A stretch of 64,000 bases of DNA from Actinomycetota bacterium (lineage in GTDB: Bacteria > Actinomycetota > UBA4738 > HRBIN12): positions 62,001-126,000 of the forward strand of contig DASSCU010000005.1 of the NCBI GenBank assembly GCA_035697485.1, in the 5' to 3' direction. The translations under genes were made by a program, and so were the position numbers. Under the pieces are notes generated by a model that ran no database searches, had not been told where the DNA came from, and saw only the letters and a list, made by a program, of their open reading frames with translations. Position 1 is the first letter of the stretch; each line of letters begins with the position of its first letter. Below, one piece after another: positions 5,540 to 22,498 of the stretch.

Positions 5540-6976
5540 ATGGCGGTAGCGTCCCCTGAACACGAGGCTCGGGATGCCTGGGCCCACGTGCTGGATCGGG
5601 CGCGCGAGGAGCTCCCCGAGACCACCGTCGTCATGTGGTTCGCCGACGTGCGGCCCGTGAGTCTGGCCGAGGACTCGATCACGCTGGCCGTCCCGAGTCC
5701 GCTCGTACGTGAACGTTTGCAACACAACCATCTTCCGCTGATCGAGCGGGCCGCGCACGAGGCCGCCGGCCGCCCGTTGAAGATCGAGCTCTCGGTCGAC
5801 GAGGCCCTGCGCGAACAGCCGGCCTCCCGACCCTTCGAGGGCGCGTCGATCGATCGGGGGGACCAGCCTCCCGCTTCCTACGCCACGATCGGCGCTCCCG
5901 AGGCGCCGTCGGCCGCGCCCGGCTCGACCGGCGCGCCGGGGCTGCCGTTCCCGAACTACACGTTCGACGCGTTCGTGCCTGGGCCCAGCAACCGGTTCGC
6001 CCACGCCGCGGCGATGGCCGTGGCCGAGGCGCCTCCATCGACCGCCTACAACCCCCTGTTCATCTACGGCGGGGTCGGCCTCGGCAAGACGCACCTGCTG
6101 ATCGCGGTGGGCCACCACATGTACCGGCTCGCACCTGCGCTCCGCGTGAAGTACGTGACGTCGGAGCAGTTCGTGACCGAGTTCATCAAGGCGGTCCGCG
6201 AGCGTCAGGGCGGCGACGCGTTCCGCCAGCGCTACCGCGAGGTCGACGTGTTGCTCGTCGACGACATCCAGTTCCTGGCGAAACGCGAGGAGACCCAGAC
6301 CGAGTTCTTCCACACGTTCAACCACCTGCACGGGGCCGGGAAACAGATCGTGATCGCGTCCGACCGCCCCCCGCACGAGCTCTCGGGGCTCGAGGAACGG
6401 CTGGTGAACCGGTTCCGGTGGGGCCTTTGCGTCGACGTGCAGCCGCCCGACCTCGAGACGCGCATCGCGATCCTGCAGCTGAAGGCCGAGCGAGAGCACA
6501 TCACCGTGCCCCCCGAAGTGATCGAGTTCGTCGCTTCGAAGTTCGACCAGTCCGTGCGAGAGCTCGAGGGAGCGCTTGTGCGTGTGGTCGCCTGGAGCGA
6601 ACTCACCGGTCAGCCGATCGACAATGCGCTTGCCGACCGAGCCCTCGAGGACCTGATCCCCCAGACCCAGAACGAGATCCCGCCACCCCTGATCCTCGAC
6701 GAGACCGCGAAGTACTTCTCACTCTCGCCGGCCGATCTGATGTCGAAGTCGCGGTCACGCCCGCTCACCCAGGCACGACACATCGCGATGTATCTCACGC
6801 GGGAGTGCACGGGCCTGTCCCTGCTGAAGATCGGCGAGATCTTCGGCGGCCGCGACCACACGACCGTGCTGCACGGCATCCGCAAGGTCGAGGATGAGAT
6901 GCGGGCTCGCGATGCGACCTTCCGGCAGGTGCAGGACCTCACCCGTATCATCCGCGGCCGGGTGCGCGCCGCATGA
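5540..6976 (+). CDS. dnaA: Chromosomal replication initiator protein DnaA
   Basis: AAA+ initiator that binds DnaA boxes and melts the origin. Domain I is about residues 1-85; the linker is short, with proline and alanine. Walker [10 protein letters not shown] lies at 177-185, Walker B with sensor residues is [12 protein letters not shown], and the domain IV DNA-binding signature is [16 protein letters not shown]. Length is 478, slightly short for an actinobacterium because domain II is brief. The ATG at 5540 is preferred; a GTG at 5516 in the same frame lies inside the inverted repeat. dnaN follows after 242 bases. Confidence 0.96.
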
Positions 6977-19009: not shown

Positions 19010-19570
19010 ATGAAGAAGCGAGTCGTGCAGGCGGGTGAGTTCGAGGTCGTCGACGACGACGGGCGGGTCAGGGTGCGCATCGGGCTCTCGAACGACGAGG
19101 ATCCGTTCTTCTCGCTCCTCGCTCCCGACGGGCAGGTGCGCATGCGGTTCGGGCTGTCGGCCGACGGCGCCGCCGGGCTCGCCGTGGGTGATGAGAACGG
19201 CAAGGTGCGCGCGACGGTCGGGCTCTCGAGCGACGGCAGCGCGAGCCTGGCGTTCGGCGACAAGAACGGGCGGATCCGCGCCAAGTTCGGCCTCGCCCCC
19301 GAGGCGTCGCCCACGATGGGCATGCAGGTGACCGACGGCGAGCTCTCGCAGGTCTACGCCCTCGCCGAGCAGGGGTCGCCGACGCTCGGCCTCTACGATC
19401 ACTCCGGCAAGGTCCGGGTGCGGCTCGGCTTGGCCGCCGAGGGCTCGCCGGTGCTTCGCCTGCTCGATCGTGCCGGCGAGCTCCGTGCGATCGTCGGATT
19501 GGCCGGCGACGGGTCGCCGTTCGTACAGTTCCTCGATGAGACGAAGCAGCCGACCTGGACGATGCGCTGA
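19010..19570 (+). CDS. Tandem-repeat protein (about seven 22-24-residue repeats)
   Basis: 186 residues built almost entirely of repeats with the pattern D-x-(N/D)-G-(K/R)-(V/I)-R-x-x-(V/F/L)-G-L-(A/S)-x-(D/E)-G-S-P-x-(L/F), for example GDENGKVRATVGLSSDGSAS and GDKNGRIRAKFGLAPEASP. The alternation of polar turns and beta-prone stretches suggests a small solenoid or beta-roll. No signal peptide or membrane segment. It is the first gene of a probable operon with the MauD-like gene 48 bases downstream. Function unknown. Confidence 0.8.
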   Translation: MKKRVVQAGEFEVVDDDGRVRVRIGLSNDEDPFFSLLAPDGQVRMRFGLSADGAAGLAVGDENGKVRATVGLSSDGSASLAFGDKNGRIRAKFGLAPEASPTMGMQVTDGELSQVYALAEQGSPTLGLYDHSGKVRVRLGLAAEGSPVLRLLDRAGELRAIVGLAGDGSPFVQFLDETKQPTWTMR

Positions 19571-19618
19571 GGACGTGGGACGGACTGGGCGGACGGTGAT
19601 GGCCAGAGGACGGGTCGG

Positions 19619-20128
19619 ATGACGGGGTGGTGGGCGCTCGCGTTCGTCGTGCTGTGGCTGCTCGTCGTGGTGCTCTGCATCGTGGTGATCGCGCTCGCGC
19701 GGCAGGTCGGCACCCTGCATCTGCGACTCGGCCCGCGGGGCGCCCTCGAGATCGACGACGAGGGACCCGCCCTCGGCGAACCGTTGCCCGCGCTCTCGGC
19801 GCACGCCGCCGATGGTGCGGCAGTCGTGCTCGGCGGTGCCGGCCGACCTCGCCTCGTGCTGTTCGCCTCGGCGACGTGCGCCGTCTGTCGCGAGGTCTCG
19901 CCGGGAGTGCCGGCCGCCGCCGCCGCTGGGCGGCTGGAGCCGATCGTCGTGCACGATGTCGAGGCCGAGCAGGTCCTCGATGTCCCCGGGACCCCCTTCG
20001 TCGTGGTGCTCGACGAGCGGGGGATCGTGCGCGCGAAGGGTACCGTGAACAACCTCGAGCAGGTCGAAGGGCTCGTGGACACCGCCAACCGAAGGATCTC
20101 GGAGGACCGCGAGCAGTGGGCAAGCTGA
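19619..20128 (+). CDS. MauD-like membrane-anchored thioredoxin-fold protein
   Basis: Resembles MauD, which is needed for disulfide formation in methylamine dehydrogenase. A membrane anchor at about 4-27 is followed by a thioredoxin-like fold with the CxxC site in FASATCAVCREVSP and a cis-Pro loop VPGTPFVVVLDERG. 169 residues. The last codons overlap the start of the cysteine-rich Tat-exported protein, so the pair is translationally coupled; this protein is likely its oxidase or isomerase. Confidence 0.85.
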   Translation: MTGWWALAFVVLWLLVVVLCIVVIALARQVGTLHLRLGPRGALEIDDEGPALGEPLPALSAHAADGAAVVLGGAGRPRLVLFASATCAVCREVSPGVPAAAAAGRLEPIVVHDVEAEQVLDVPGTPFVVVLDERGIVRAKGTVNNLEQVEGLVDTANRRISEDREQWAS

Positions 20129-20652
20129 CCTCGATCGAACGGGCGGAACGGTCGCTCGCCACGCGGACCAGTCGCCGAAGCTTCCTCGGACGCGTCGGTC
20201 GAGGGGTGGTGGCACTCGCCGGCGGCGGGCTGGTCGCGACCGCGATCGCGCCCGACCGCGCGCAGGCGTATCACATCTGCGGGCACACCTATACGACGGG
20301 GTCCTGCCCCCATCCCTACTCGCCGTTGTCGCGGACCGATCGCTACGGCTACCCGATGCACCCGCAGTACGGATACCCGGTCGACGACGAGGGGAAGAAG
20401 TACGTCGATCCGCGGAGCCAGACGCGCCGCAAGACATGTGAACAGGTCGTGCCCGAGGCGTATCCATTCACCGGGTCGCCACGGTACGGGGGCGGGTGGA
20501 CCCGGTGTTGCTCGGGCCGGCTGCGCCACATCCAGGACTGTTGCTCCCGGTCGGACATCCGCATCAACGGGGACTACGCGGTGCGTGGGTACTGTCCTCG
20601 CCCGCTGAAGGTCTTCTGCATCTCCTTCCGGGAGCTCAACAAGACGTGTTGA
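20116..20652 (+). CDS. Tat-exported cysteine-rich protein, methylamine-dehydrogenase-light-chain-like
   Basis: 178 residues from a GTG that overlaps the MauD-like gene. The N-terminus carries a twin-arginine signal (TSRRSFLGRVGRG) with an Ala-rich cleavage region ending AQA. The mature part has ten cysteines, including TRCC and QDCC pairs, many Tyr and Pro residues, and ends in Cys. Position and cysteine pattern recall MauA, but only one tryptophan (in YGGGWTRCC) is present, so the Trp-Trp cofactor TTQ cannot form. Tat export implies folding or disulfide formation before transport, or cofactor loading in the cytoplasm. Confidence 0.8.
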   Translation: MGKLTSIERAERSLATRTSRRSFLGRVGRGVVALAGGGLVATAIAPDRAQAYHICGHTYTTGSCPHPYSPLSRTDRYGYPMHPQYGYPVDDEGKKYVDPRSQTRRKTCEQVVPEAYPFTGSPRYGGGWTRCCSGRLRHIQDCCSRSDIRINGDYAVRGYCPRPLKVFCISFRELNKTC

Positions 20653-20750
20653 CCGATCCGTTCGGTGGCGACGCCCTCGCGGCGTCGCTGCTCTTGGTCC
20701 TCGTCGGAGCGTCAGCGATCGCCGGGTGGTCGGCACTCTACGGCCCCTGA
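20646..20750 (+). CDS. 34-residue membrane peptide in the Mau-like operon
   Basis: A short frame from GTG at 20646 (or TTG at 20649, overlapping the previous TGA) encodes a peptide with a single hydrophobic helix, LAASLLLVLVGASAIAGW, ending LYGP. GGGAGCT lies about 11 bases upstream of the GTG. Overlap with the gene before and a 9-base gap to the gene after make it likely to be translated. No family recognised. Confidence 0.6.
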   Translation: MLTDPFGGDALAASLLLVLVGASAIAGWSALYGP

Positions 20751-20759
20751 GGGATCTCG

Positions 20760-21884
20760 ATGGTGGAGACCATCACCCCCGTCGTGTACGGGGGGCGCAC
20801 CCGGTGGGCCGTCGCCCTCGTGCTACACGTGGCCGGCGCCACCGCGACCGCAGCGCTCTTCGGTGCCGCGCTCGGCGCCGTCGGCGCCCTGCTGGAGGCG
20901 CCCTGGGGCCGCGCCGGCCTGCTCGCCGTCGCGGTCACGGCGACCGTCTACGCGCTGGGCGAGCTTCCCCGTGTGACGGCCACCGTGCCGCAGCTCCGAC
21001 GCCAGGTTCCCGATTGGTGGCGGGAGTTCTTCTCATGGCCGATCGCTGCAACCTTGTACGGCGCCGGGCTCGGCATCGGGTTCTTCACCTACGTCTCCCA
21101 CGGCACCCTCGTGGTCGTGGCGGTCGCCGCGCTCGCTTCGGGCGATCCGCTGGCGGGAGCGCTCATCGTCGCGCCGTTCGGGCTCGTGCGGGGCCTCACG
21201 GCCGCCCGGTCCGCCGGTGTCCACTCCCAGCCGGAGTCACAGCGGCTGGTCGACCGGCTGGCCGGCTCCCCGGAGGGCCGGCGCAACGTCGCGAACGGCG
21301 TCGTGCTCGTGACCGTGGTCGCGGCGTCGATCCCGCTGGCGATCCGGGCCGGCGACGGTTGGGCATCGCTCTCGACCGCGGTCCTCGCGATCGCGTTCGC
21401 GTGGGCGGCGACGTCGAAAGCGGTGGACATCCGAGGGTGGCGGCGTACGCTCGACGAGCACGCGCTCCCACGCGGCGTCGAGAGCGCCGCCACGTTCGCC
21501 GTGCCGGCCGCGGAAGCGATGGTGCCGCTGCTGGTCGTGGCGGGATGGACGCGCGCGGCGGGCGTGTGGGCGCTCGTACTGGTGGCGGTGTTCACTGCCG
21601 AGACGGGGCGTGCGTGGCGCCGCTTCGGCACCCAGGTGCCGTGCGGGTGCTTCGGCGGGCGTGAGGCCGTCGAGCCCGGGGCCTTGCTGCTGCGCAACGC
21701 GGCCCTCGCGGCTGTCGCGATCGTGGTCGCGCTGCGCCCCGCCCACGAGCCGGTGATCGCGTGGCCAGGATGGCCCACCACGGGGGAGTTCCTGCCGATG
21801 GTGCTGGTCGTCGCAGGGCTGTTCCTGGCAGGCTTCACGGCGTGGGCGGCGATCAGGTGGCTGGGCCGAGGGGCGCCCACATGA
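20760..21884 (+). CDS. MauE-like (DoxX-type) multi-pass membrane protein with extra N-terminal half
   Basis: 374 residues with about nine to ten hydrophobic segments. The C-terminal part (about 215-330) matches the MauE layout, including FRRFGTQ-like RRFGTQVPCGCFGG with two cysteines near the membrane, which can exchange electrons with a MauD-type thioredoxin. The N-terminal half (1-200) is a further membrane region without a family I recognise. GAGGGATC precedes the ATG. It overlaps the next gene by four bases. Confidence 0.8.
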   Translation: MVETITPVVYGGRTRWAVALVLHVAGATATAALFGAALGAVGALLEAPWGRAGLLAVAVTATVYALGELPRVTATVPQLRRQVPDWWREFFSWPIAATLYGAGLGIGFFTYVSHGTLVVVAVAALASGDPLAGALIVAPFGLVRGLTAARSAGVHSQPESQRLVDRLAGSPEGRRNVANGVVLVTVVAASIPLAIRAGDGWASLSTAVLAIAFAWAATSKAVDIRGWRRTLDEHALPRGVESAATFAVPAAEAMVPLLVVAGWTRAAGVWALVLVAVFTAETGRAWRRFGTQVPCGCFGGREAVEPGALLLRNAALAAVAIVVALRPAHEPVIAWPGWPTTGEFLPMVLVVAGLFLAGFTAWAAIRWLGRGAPT

Positions 21885-22498
21885 CCTCGGCACGCTCCTG
21901 GTGGGCTACCTCACCGTTCCGCTCGGCCATCCCGTTCCTCGTCGCCGGCCTCATCGTGGCGGTGGCCGTCGTCGCGATCGCGGCCCCCTCGTTCCACAGC
22001 AGCATCAACGACCCCAACGACACGCGGGGGCTCCTCGACGTGAGGAAGGTGCGCCTCGATCACGAGGAGGGTACCGAGTTCACGGTGATCACGTTCGCGG
22101 ACTGGACGGCCGCATCGATCTGGGACCGCGGCAACGGTTACGTCTTCCTCGACACCGAGGGTGGCGACGAGCCGGAGTACTTCGTCGTCGTCCGCAGCAC
22201 GGGCTCCGATCTGCAGGCATCGCTCTGGCGCGACCGGCGCGATCGCCGAGACCTGTTCCTACGCAACGTGAAGGTGCGGCGCAAGTCAACCGACGGCGTC
22301 TCCGTCGCGGTGCCGATCAGGTCGCTCGAGTTCGGACAGTTCCGCACCTCGTACTCCTGGTGGGCCATGACCAGCTTCACCGGCGAGGTCTGCCGGCGCA
22401 CCTGCCTCGACCGGGCACCCGACGACGGTGCGGTGGAACAGTGGCGTCCCGGCATGTCGCCGACGCCGACGAACAGTCCGTCACCCAGCGAGTCCTGA
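21881..22498 (+). CDS. Membrane-anchored exported protein, unknown function
   Basis: 205 residues starting at an ATGA overlap with the MauE-like gene. One membrane anchor (FLVAGLIVAVAVVAIAAP) near residues 19-37 is followed by an exported domain containing a Cys pair (EVCRRTCLDRAP) and a Ser/Pro-rich tail (SPTPTNSPSPSES). No known domain recognised. As the last gene of the Mau-like operon it is a candidate partner or receptor of the cysteine-rich secreted protein. Confidence 0.75.
   Translation: MTSARSWWATSPFRSAIPFLVAGLIVAVAVVAIAAPSFHSSINDPNDTRGLLDVRKVRLDHEEGTEFTVITFADWTAASIWDRGNGYVFLDTEGGDEPEYFVVVRSTGSDLQASLWRDRRDRRDLFLRNVKVRRKSTDGVSVAVPIRSLEFGQFRTSYSWWAMTSFTGEVCRRTCLDRAPDDGAVEQWRPGMSPTPTNSPSPSES

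Follow-up and report, generated by a model that had tools for sequence, protein, structure and literature searches.

What product does a set of methylamine dehydrogenase maturation genes serve when the enzyme they are named for appears to be missing? In Paracoccus denitrificans, MauF, MauE and MauD serve maturation of the enzyme's light chain. A locus at positions 19010-22498 (+ strand) of a 64-kb window, the whole stretch of DNA analysed, from the Actinomycetota bacterium contig DASSCU010000005.1 contains MauD-like and MauE-like genes flanking a protein with a twin-arginine translocation (Tat) signal, ten Cys and a single Trp. The original prediction, made from this sequence, was confirmed on this arrangement by the open reading frames (ORFs), TIGR02661 and PF07291. 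We compared the window with 56 genome loci carrying a related operon (loci, genomes and contigs are denoted L, G and C). With a probability of roughly 0.85, the operon is dedicated to exporting a light-chain-like protein and maturing its disulfides, and its MauF is a selenoprotein. The set of light-chain-like protein, MauD, MauE and MauF is recurrent across Actinomycetota, so that the neighbourhood conservation to be checked according to the original prediction was found, and its recurrence is far beyond chance.

Upstream of the MauE domain, a 34-residue ORF (20646-20750) and the ORF following it share one computed frame with a TGA (20748-20750) as its sole interruption. The ORF after the UGA comprises 374 residues, about twice the length of P. 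denitrificans MauE (186 residues). Judged by homology, the MauE identity is certain: PF07291 matched with 76 bits (cut-off 27; E 3e-21, or 3.5e-21 on the read-through protein), and the domain, including a CGCF motif, maps to 21369-21734, residues 242-363 of the read-through protein. The preceding half alone matched DsbD_2 (PF13386) weakly at E 3.3e-4, under the cut-off. A hidden Markov model (HMM) of the family's MauF found P. denitrificans MauF at E 3.2e-33 in a database of 586 ORFs, and in this match the UGA column falls on the Cys of the P. denitrificans WSPCG motif. Accordingly, the read-through sequence ...IAGWSALYGP-U-GISMVETITP... aligns with ...VTGAWSP-C-GFSMVETLAP... of Solirubrobacter and LSTWSP-C-GYSS of P. 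denitrificans. The original prediction had taken MauF to be absent and the 34-residue ORF to be a membrane peptide gene of its own. Both views were rejected, the first because the family HMM matches P. denitrificans MauF, so that the 'MauE-like' ORF begins with MauF, to which MauE is fused, and the second because the frame is shared and the UGA, which had been overlooked, sits on the conserved MauF Cys. Thus, 20646-20750 is predicted to be the N-terminus and first helix of MauF, and the proposed MauF-MauE fusion (20646-21884, + strand, GTG start assumed, overlapping the stop of the light-chain-like gene) would comprise 412 aa with UGA read as selenocysteine (Sec35) at the Cys of the P-C-G motif.

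Codon usage at this position is restricted to UGA and Cys. The codon was readable in 53 among the window and the 56 loci, L075, L079, L100 and L104 being without a readable MauF codon, and was TGA in 32, TGC in 19 and TGT in 2 cases, with no other codon found. For comparison, the light-chain genes of the same 32 UGA loci stop with TGA (26), TAG (4) or TAA (2). Thermomicrobium roseum, which belongs to another phylum, carries a UGA at the same MauF codon (SALWSP-TGA-GYSMVD; L129:4324-4326, minus strand), and L020, L040 and L041 have LWSP-TGA-GLS in MauF. A quick tree was built from 56 rows (35 UGA, 21 Cys; L093 was dropped as the same species as L091, and L071 and L119 as short), and parsimony places four changes of codon type on it. 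A UGA clade (L086, L087, L095, L099) is nested among Cys genes; its best hairpin spans roughly +17 to +34, whereas the usual one spans +29 to +47, and this clade looks as if it had gained Sec independently. Conversely, L039 is a Cys gene within a UGA clade; its own genome (G039) lacks a SelA match and carries just a tRNA-Ser at the place of tRNA-Sec, which looks like a loss.

Downstream of the UGA lies a selenocysteine insertion sequence (SECIS)-like hairpin, CCCCCGU-CGUGU-ACGGGGG (20776-20794, + strand), which starts 25 nt past the UGA. In the common register, numbered from the first UGA base, its seven pairs span nt 29-47. Among distinct sequences (32 UGA, 20 Cys), at least 6 of the 7 pairs form in 27 of the UGA genes, 20 of them complete, versus none of the Cys genes. 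The computed covariation in UGA genes amounted to 21 doubly changed, still-paired cells versus 9.0 in shuffles, a control that leaves relatedness in, and 0 of 500 shuffles reached as high; the same test at the hairpin positions of Cys genes gave no signal. Sliding the hairpin partners reduced pairing from 88% to 41-64%. Under a synonymous-codon null, 198 of 224 cells were paired in the UGA genes against 154.6 +/- 4.7 expected, whereas the Cys genes were at their null (54 observed, 55.1 expected).

These data bear on the alternative that the UGA is a true stop and MauF is split, the 34-residue peptide and the MauF-MauE core being produced by termination and re-initiation. Each of the 32 UGA loci does have an ATG (GTG in L096) 9 nt past the UGA, an arrangement that would suit re-initiation. 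Pairs of gene-like ORFs that adjoin in a single frame on either side of a stop are frequent in these loci (66 cases), for which reason we did not use this adjacency as evidence. However, the downstream Met codon is also kept in most Cys genes and therefore not UGA-specific, and L040 combines UGA with Ile at this place. Moreover, a split gene leaves unexplained why the stop is always UGA and never UAA or UAG, why it is found exactly where homologues have TGC or TGT, and why hairpin covariation is confined to UGA genes. We consider a split MauF highly improbable.

The window's genome also encodes the selenocysteine machinery. SelA was matched at E 5e-125, and SelB, 322 bits over the cut-off, adjoins SelA on contig C48. 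A tRNA with anticodon TCA matched the tRNA-Sec model with 74 bits and was called SeC by ARAGORN. Bacteria are known in which reassigned tRNAs, such as a tRNA-Cys with UCA anticodon, or other suppressors recode UGA as Cys; yet the UCA tRNA of this genome fits the tRNA-Sec model, SelA and SelB are encoded side by side, and the SECIS-like hairpin would be needless. Recoding as Cys is hence barely credible here. Across the comparison set, with G131 and G091 left out owing to the unreadable MauF codon and G077/G396 and G118/G428 counted once each as identical loci, SelA was over the cut-off in 32 of 37 UGA genomes (as a fragment at a contig end in G209).

Several observations weigh against MauF being a selenoprotein. 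The strongly supported branches of the tree, taken alone, require no more than a single codon-type change. In 5 of the 32 UGA loci the hairpin is lacking from the common register, and the fold of the T. roseum MauF RNA did not reveal a clear simple hairpin. SelA was missing or below the cut-off in 5 of the 37 UGA genomes, all of them metagenome-assembled (G247, G400, G403, G413, G430), although tRNA-Sec is present in G247, and a convincing tRNA-Sec was detected in 17/22 plus 8/15 UGA genomes. SelA is also over the cut-off in 13 of 22 Cys genomes, in one of them weakly. Machinery and codon are therefore linked loosely and in one direction, which is what one would expect in genomes that encode other selenoproteins. 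Finally, L079 and L027 have a light-chain-like gene and no recognisable MauF was found downstream of it. The genome of the latter locus (G131) has SelA and tRNA-Sec. Altogether, the UGA/Cys interchange, the covarying hairpin, the Sec machinery in the genome and the UGA in T. roseum lead us to conclude that MauF appears to be a selenoprotein with Sec35 encoded by the UGA at 20748.

The presumed substrate of this machinery is the ten-Cys protein (178 aa, one Trp; 20116-20652, + strand, GTG start assumed). Its ten-Cys pattern, the Trp and the DCC motif are kept in all 56 loci, with an eleventh Cys in L071, and the family motif reads G[GSA]WxRCC...DCC...R[IV]NGD...GYC...V[FY]C...C. A Tat signal model matched 24 of the 26 members scanned. 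A structure model was obtained with a predicted local distance difference test (pLDDT) score of 93, and VIA-align ranked the methylamine dehydrogenase light chain 1mda_L top among 996 aligned PDB chains (Z 4.0 over 72 residues, 3.0 A; next 2.8), a middling score that would be weak if alone. Profile comparison with the light-chain pair of T. roseum gave P 7.6e-4, and these intermediates align GGAWYVCC...RYRDCC with GGGWTRCC...IQDCC; the T. roseum light chains bridge the ten-Cys family and known light chains. TIGR02659 matched 18 of 26 members with values up to 5.8e-6, the match of the window protein covering the signal region only and remaining below the cut-off.

The Mau-type genes might instead have been recruited for a novel exported Cys-rich protein unrelated to methylamine dehydrogenase light chains. 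Consistent with this, the ten-Cys protein has no match to the light-chain model PF02975, comparison of its profile with those of proteobacterial light chains fell short of significance (P 0.2-0.3), and Foldseek returned nothing for the model at E <= 0.001. Searches of PDB sequences with this protein were likewise empty. Nevertheless, the top rank of 1mda_L, the T. roseum intermediates, operon partners identical in kind and the TIGR02659 matches in other members all point to kinship. An unrelated origin is unlikely in our view, and the ten-Cys protein is probably not foreign to the enzyme subunit; the sequence comparisons and the structure model are suggestive of a diverged relative of the light chain. 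The original prediction of an undescribed disulfide-maturation and export system with its own Cys-rich product thus held with regard to the type of system, the Tat product and the apparent novelty, but the product is probably a light-chain relative.

Such kinship does not extend to the TTQ (tryptophan tryptophylquinone) cofactor, which in the methylamine dehydrogenase light chain is formed by Trp57 and Trp108, with Asp76 as catalytic residue. Mapped through the alignment and the structure match, W128 is at the putative Trp57 position and D141 at the putative Asp76 position, both invariant in 56/56 loci. F167 occupies the putative Trp108 position, where 53 of the 56 loci have Phe, 3 have Tyr and none has Trp. 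TTQ in the ten-Cys protein is therefore excluded, as originally predicted. TTQ light chains elsewhere in the phylum were also considered and rejected, since PF02975 was over the cut-off in 0 of 396 genomes and weak matches in 35 were read as chance. Nor did PF02975 detect a two-Trp light chain elsewhere in the window's genome, a weak negative given that control genomes were also silent. The reported lack of a heavy chain and MauG nearby was borne out by model searches of the whole genome: the heavy-chain model PF06433 matched none of 16 genomes including the window's, with the P. denitrificans plasmid as positive control (2e-212), and the MauG model PF03150 was unmatched in the window's genome and matched in 1 of the 16. 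A Solirubrobacter genome (L172; G404:C399:76574-77041) encodes a CCP_MauG-type protein (5e-44) on a different contig from the operon.

Could the light-chain-like protein be an enzyme with a new Trp-derived cofactor, for instance Trp-Cys or a mono-Trp quinone, instead of a structural protein? The invariant Trp128 and Asp141, the Cys pair right after the Trp (W-x-R-C-C) and a propeller-like partner in Thermoleophilia (see below) would fit such an enzyme. Against it stand the absence of a MauG-like peroxidase match in 15 of 16 genomes, the missing heavy chain, and the recurrent neighbours, among which no cytochrome, cupredoxin or obvious electron carrier was seen by eye. We regard an enzymatic role of this kind as doubtful. 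A combined scenario is about as doubtful: a selenium-dependent machine of Sec-MauF, MauE and MauD would build a new class of single-Trp cofactor protein, a light-chain relative with the active-site positions Trp57 and Asp76 preserved and a hitherto undescribed Trp-derived cofactor, which would operate on the surface of actinobacterial cells together with a membrane-tethered partner, either a propeller or a CBM9/DOMON-like protein.

Returning to a disulfide-maturation unit with MauF as a selenoprotein, we infer Sec insertion, disulfide function, light-chain homology, a partner and the final function of the product from the computed gene order, frame, Cys/UGA interchange, hairpin covariation and Sec machinery, and propose the following course. 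The ten-Cys protein would be exported via Tat, and MauD (a CxxC thioredoxin), MauE (CGC) and MauF would oxidise and fold it at the membrane. MauF would act as a CcdA/DsbD-like membrane protein in which the conserved Cys of helix 1 is replaced by Sec, inserted by SelB and tRNA-Sec at UGA 20748 under the direction of the hairpin at 20776-20794. Sec-MauF would then supply an exchange step in the membrane for disulfide formation by MauE and MauD. The product would keep the Trp57 and Asp76 positions, with Trp108 changed to Phe and no TTQ, and a partner would probably retain it on the cell surface, namely the anchored CBM9/DOMON-like protein here and a MauF-fused propeller-like domain in Thermoleophilia.

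Compared to the mau operon of P. denitrificans (mauF, B, E, D, A, amicyanin, J, G), the window's operon is alike in grouping MauD, MauE and MauF with a disulfide-rich light chain that is exported via Tat. In contrast, heavy chain (MauB), MauG and amicyanin were not found here, MauF and MauE are fused, the MauF Cys is replaced by UGA, and the light-chain-like protein has 10 Cys without the second TTQ Trp, compared to 12 Cys in the P. denitrificans light chain. The T. roseum plasmid NC_011961.1 resembles the window in the light-chain motif GGAW(Y/W)xC(C)...DCC and in the UGA at the same MauF codon, but its light chains retain both Trp positions; PF06433 was unmatched on this plasmid too. CcdA has a paired second membrane Cys. 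Unlike CcdA/DsbD membrane reductases (PF13386), which the MauF half alone resembles as weakly as noted above, MauF has one conserved Cys/Sec in helix 1, and a paired second membrane Cys is not evident. With known bacterial selenoproteins it shares the UGA/Cys interchange at a redox position, a SECIS-like hairpin and SelA/SelB/tRNA-Sec.

No Pfam or NCBIfam selenoprotein model matched the window's MauF. In Table 1 of the 119-family selenoprotein inventory of 2026 (PMC13188914), the entry whose name comes closest is TsoB, a rhodanese/DsbD fusion-like selenoprotein, and a MauF/CcdA-type family is not among the families of this table. A term search of PMC9312934 for a MauF-type selenoprotein found none. 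In the published literature searched, within which Haft and Tolstoy 2025 was covered via the entries of PMC13188914 Table 1 only, no report of a MauF selenoprotein was found. MauF appears to represent a new, membrane-embedded selenoprotein family and the system to be undescribed. The selenoproteins would thereby gain a family of the MauF/CcdA type that sits in the membrane, switches between UGA and Cys, has a hairpin that covaries and occurs in two phyla. Selenium would also become connected with how an exported protein rich in disulfides is assembled. It further suggests that Mau-type disulfide maturation is separable from TTQ formation. The natural exchange of sulfur for selenium at the one conserved Cys of MauF offers a direct test of the need for that Cys. 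Genes of this type are likely to be mistaken for two, a small ORF and a shortened MauF or MauE, as occurred at this locus.

All ORFs of 19010-22498 are present as called on the + strand, with adjacent genes overlapping or closely spaced, in the order repeat protein, MauD-like protein, Tat-type ten-Cys protein, MauF-MauE and anchored protein. The repeat protein and the anchored protein with a Cys pair, both included in the original prediction, were recovered as ORFs. The MauD-like membrane-anchored thioredoxin (169 aa, CAVC motif; 19619-20128) matched the MauD model TIGR02661 at E 6e-23 with 81 bits, not reaching the equivalog cut-off of 188.6; by homology and its CxxC motif it is clearly predicted to be MauD-like, if divergent. 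A MauD homologue is present in 54 of the 56 loci, and the other two (L077, L118) end at a contig edge. The repeat protein (186 aa, GxVRxxxGL repeats; 19010-19570), in which no signal peptide was seen, had nothing over the cut-off in a Pfam and NCBIfam scan and is restricted to the window's own clade (window plus L065, L066, L067 and L069 among the 56 loci).

The last gene (21881-22498) encodes a membrane-anchored beta-sandwich, CBM9/DOMON-like according to structure model and alignment, with a CxxxC pair (C171/C175) invariant across 15 aligned sequences. Its model (pLDDT 82.7) had no confident Foldseek match; VIA-align found 1ug9 (Z 11.1, 134 residues, 3.1 A), the ethylbenzene dehydrogenase gamma subunit 2ivf_C (Z 9.4, 141 residues, 3.7 A) and the CBM9 7nwn (Z 8.3). 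On this modelled fold, the anchored protein may hold the product in the window's clade.

Fusion arrangements vary among the loci. MauF-MauE fusions characterise the window's clade, another clade has separate genes with a divergent MauE, and Thermoleophilia have MauE-MauD fusions. MauE, MauD and the light-chain-like protein form a single open frame in L102, L104, L106, L107 and L116; two of these examples, L102:2490-3869 and L107:9158-10528, retain an internal twin-arginine motif. Of the 38 loci L083-L120, 30 have an ORF that runs 434-521 residues beyond the UGA/Cys, about 250 past MauF, and by eye this extension looks like a beta-propeller in the ten examples inspected. The methylamine dehydrogenase heavy chain is a propeller, which the MauF-fused extension recalls. 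L038 has a propeller-like ORF after its light-chain-like gene and no MauF in the locus.

In three Solirubrobacter loci MauF departs from its usual place: some 3.7 kb separate it from the light-chain-like gene in L091:14250 (Solirubrobacter sp./S. deserti) and L098:14233 (S. taibaiensis), and it was not found within the locus in L100 (S. phytolaccae). On the T. roseum plasmid there are at least two light-chain-like genes with two Trp positions (L064:10501-10953 and 5902-6318), one of them unannotated, which adjoin proteins of about 400 aa. A search of the plasmid collection gave no match to the window's light-chain-like protein or to the type present in L040. The latter belongs to a second Tat-exported Cys-rich family (L020:137-586, L040:1483-1932, L041:1486-1935) with the pattern VCGQSGVxPKC...WGxCWY...GCC...ICDCC...CIVESCG, which is fused to a longer C-terminal part and encoded beside the UGA-containing MauF, with MauD and MauE matches in L040 and L041.

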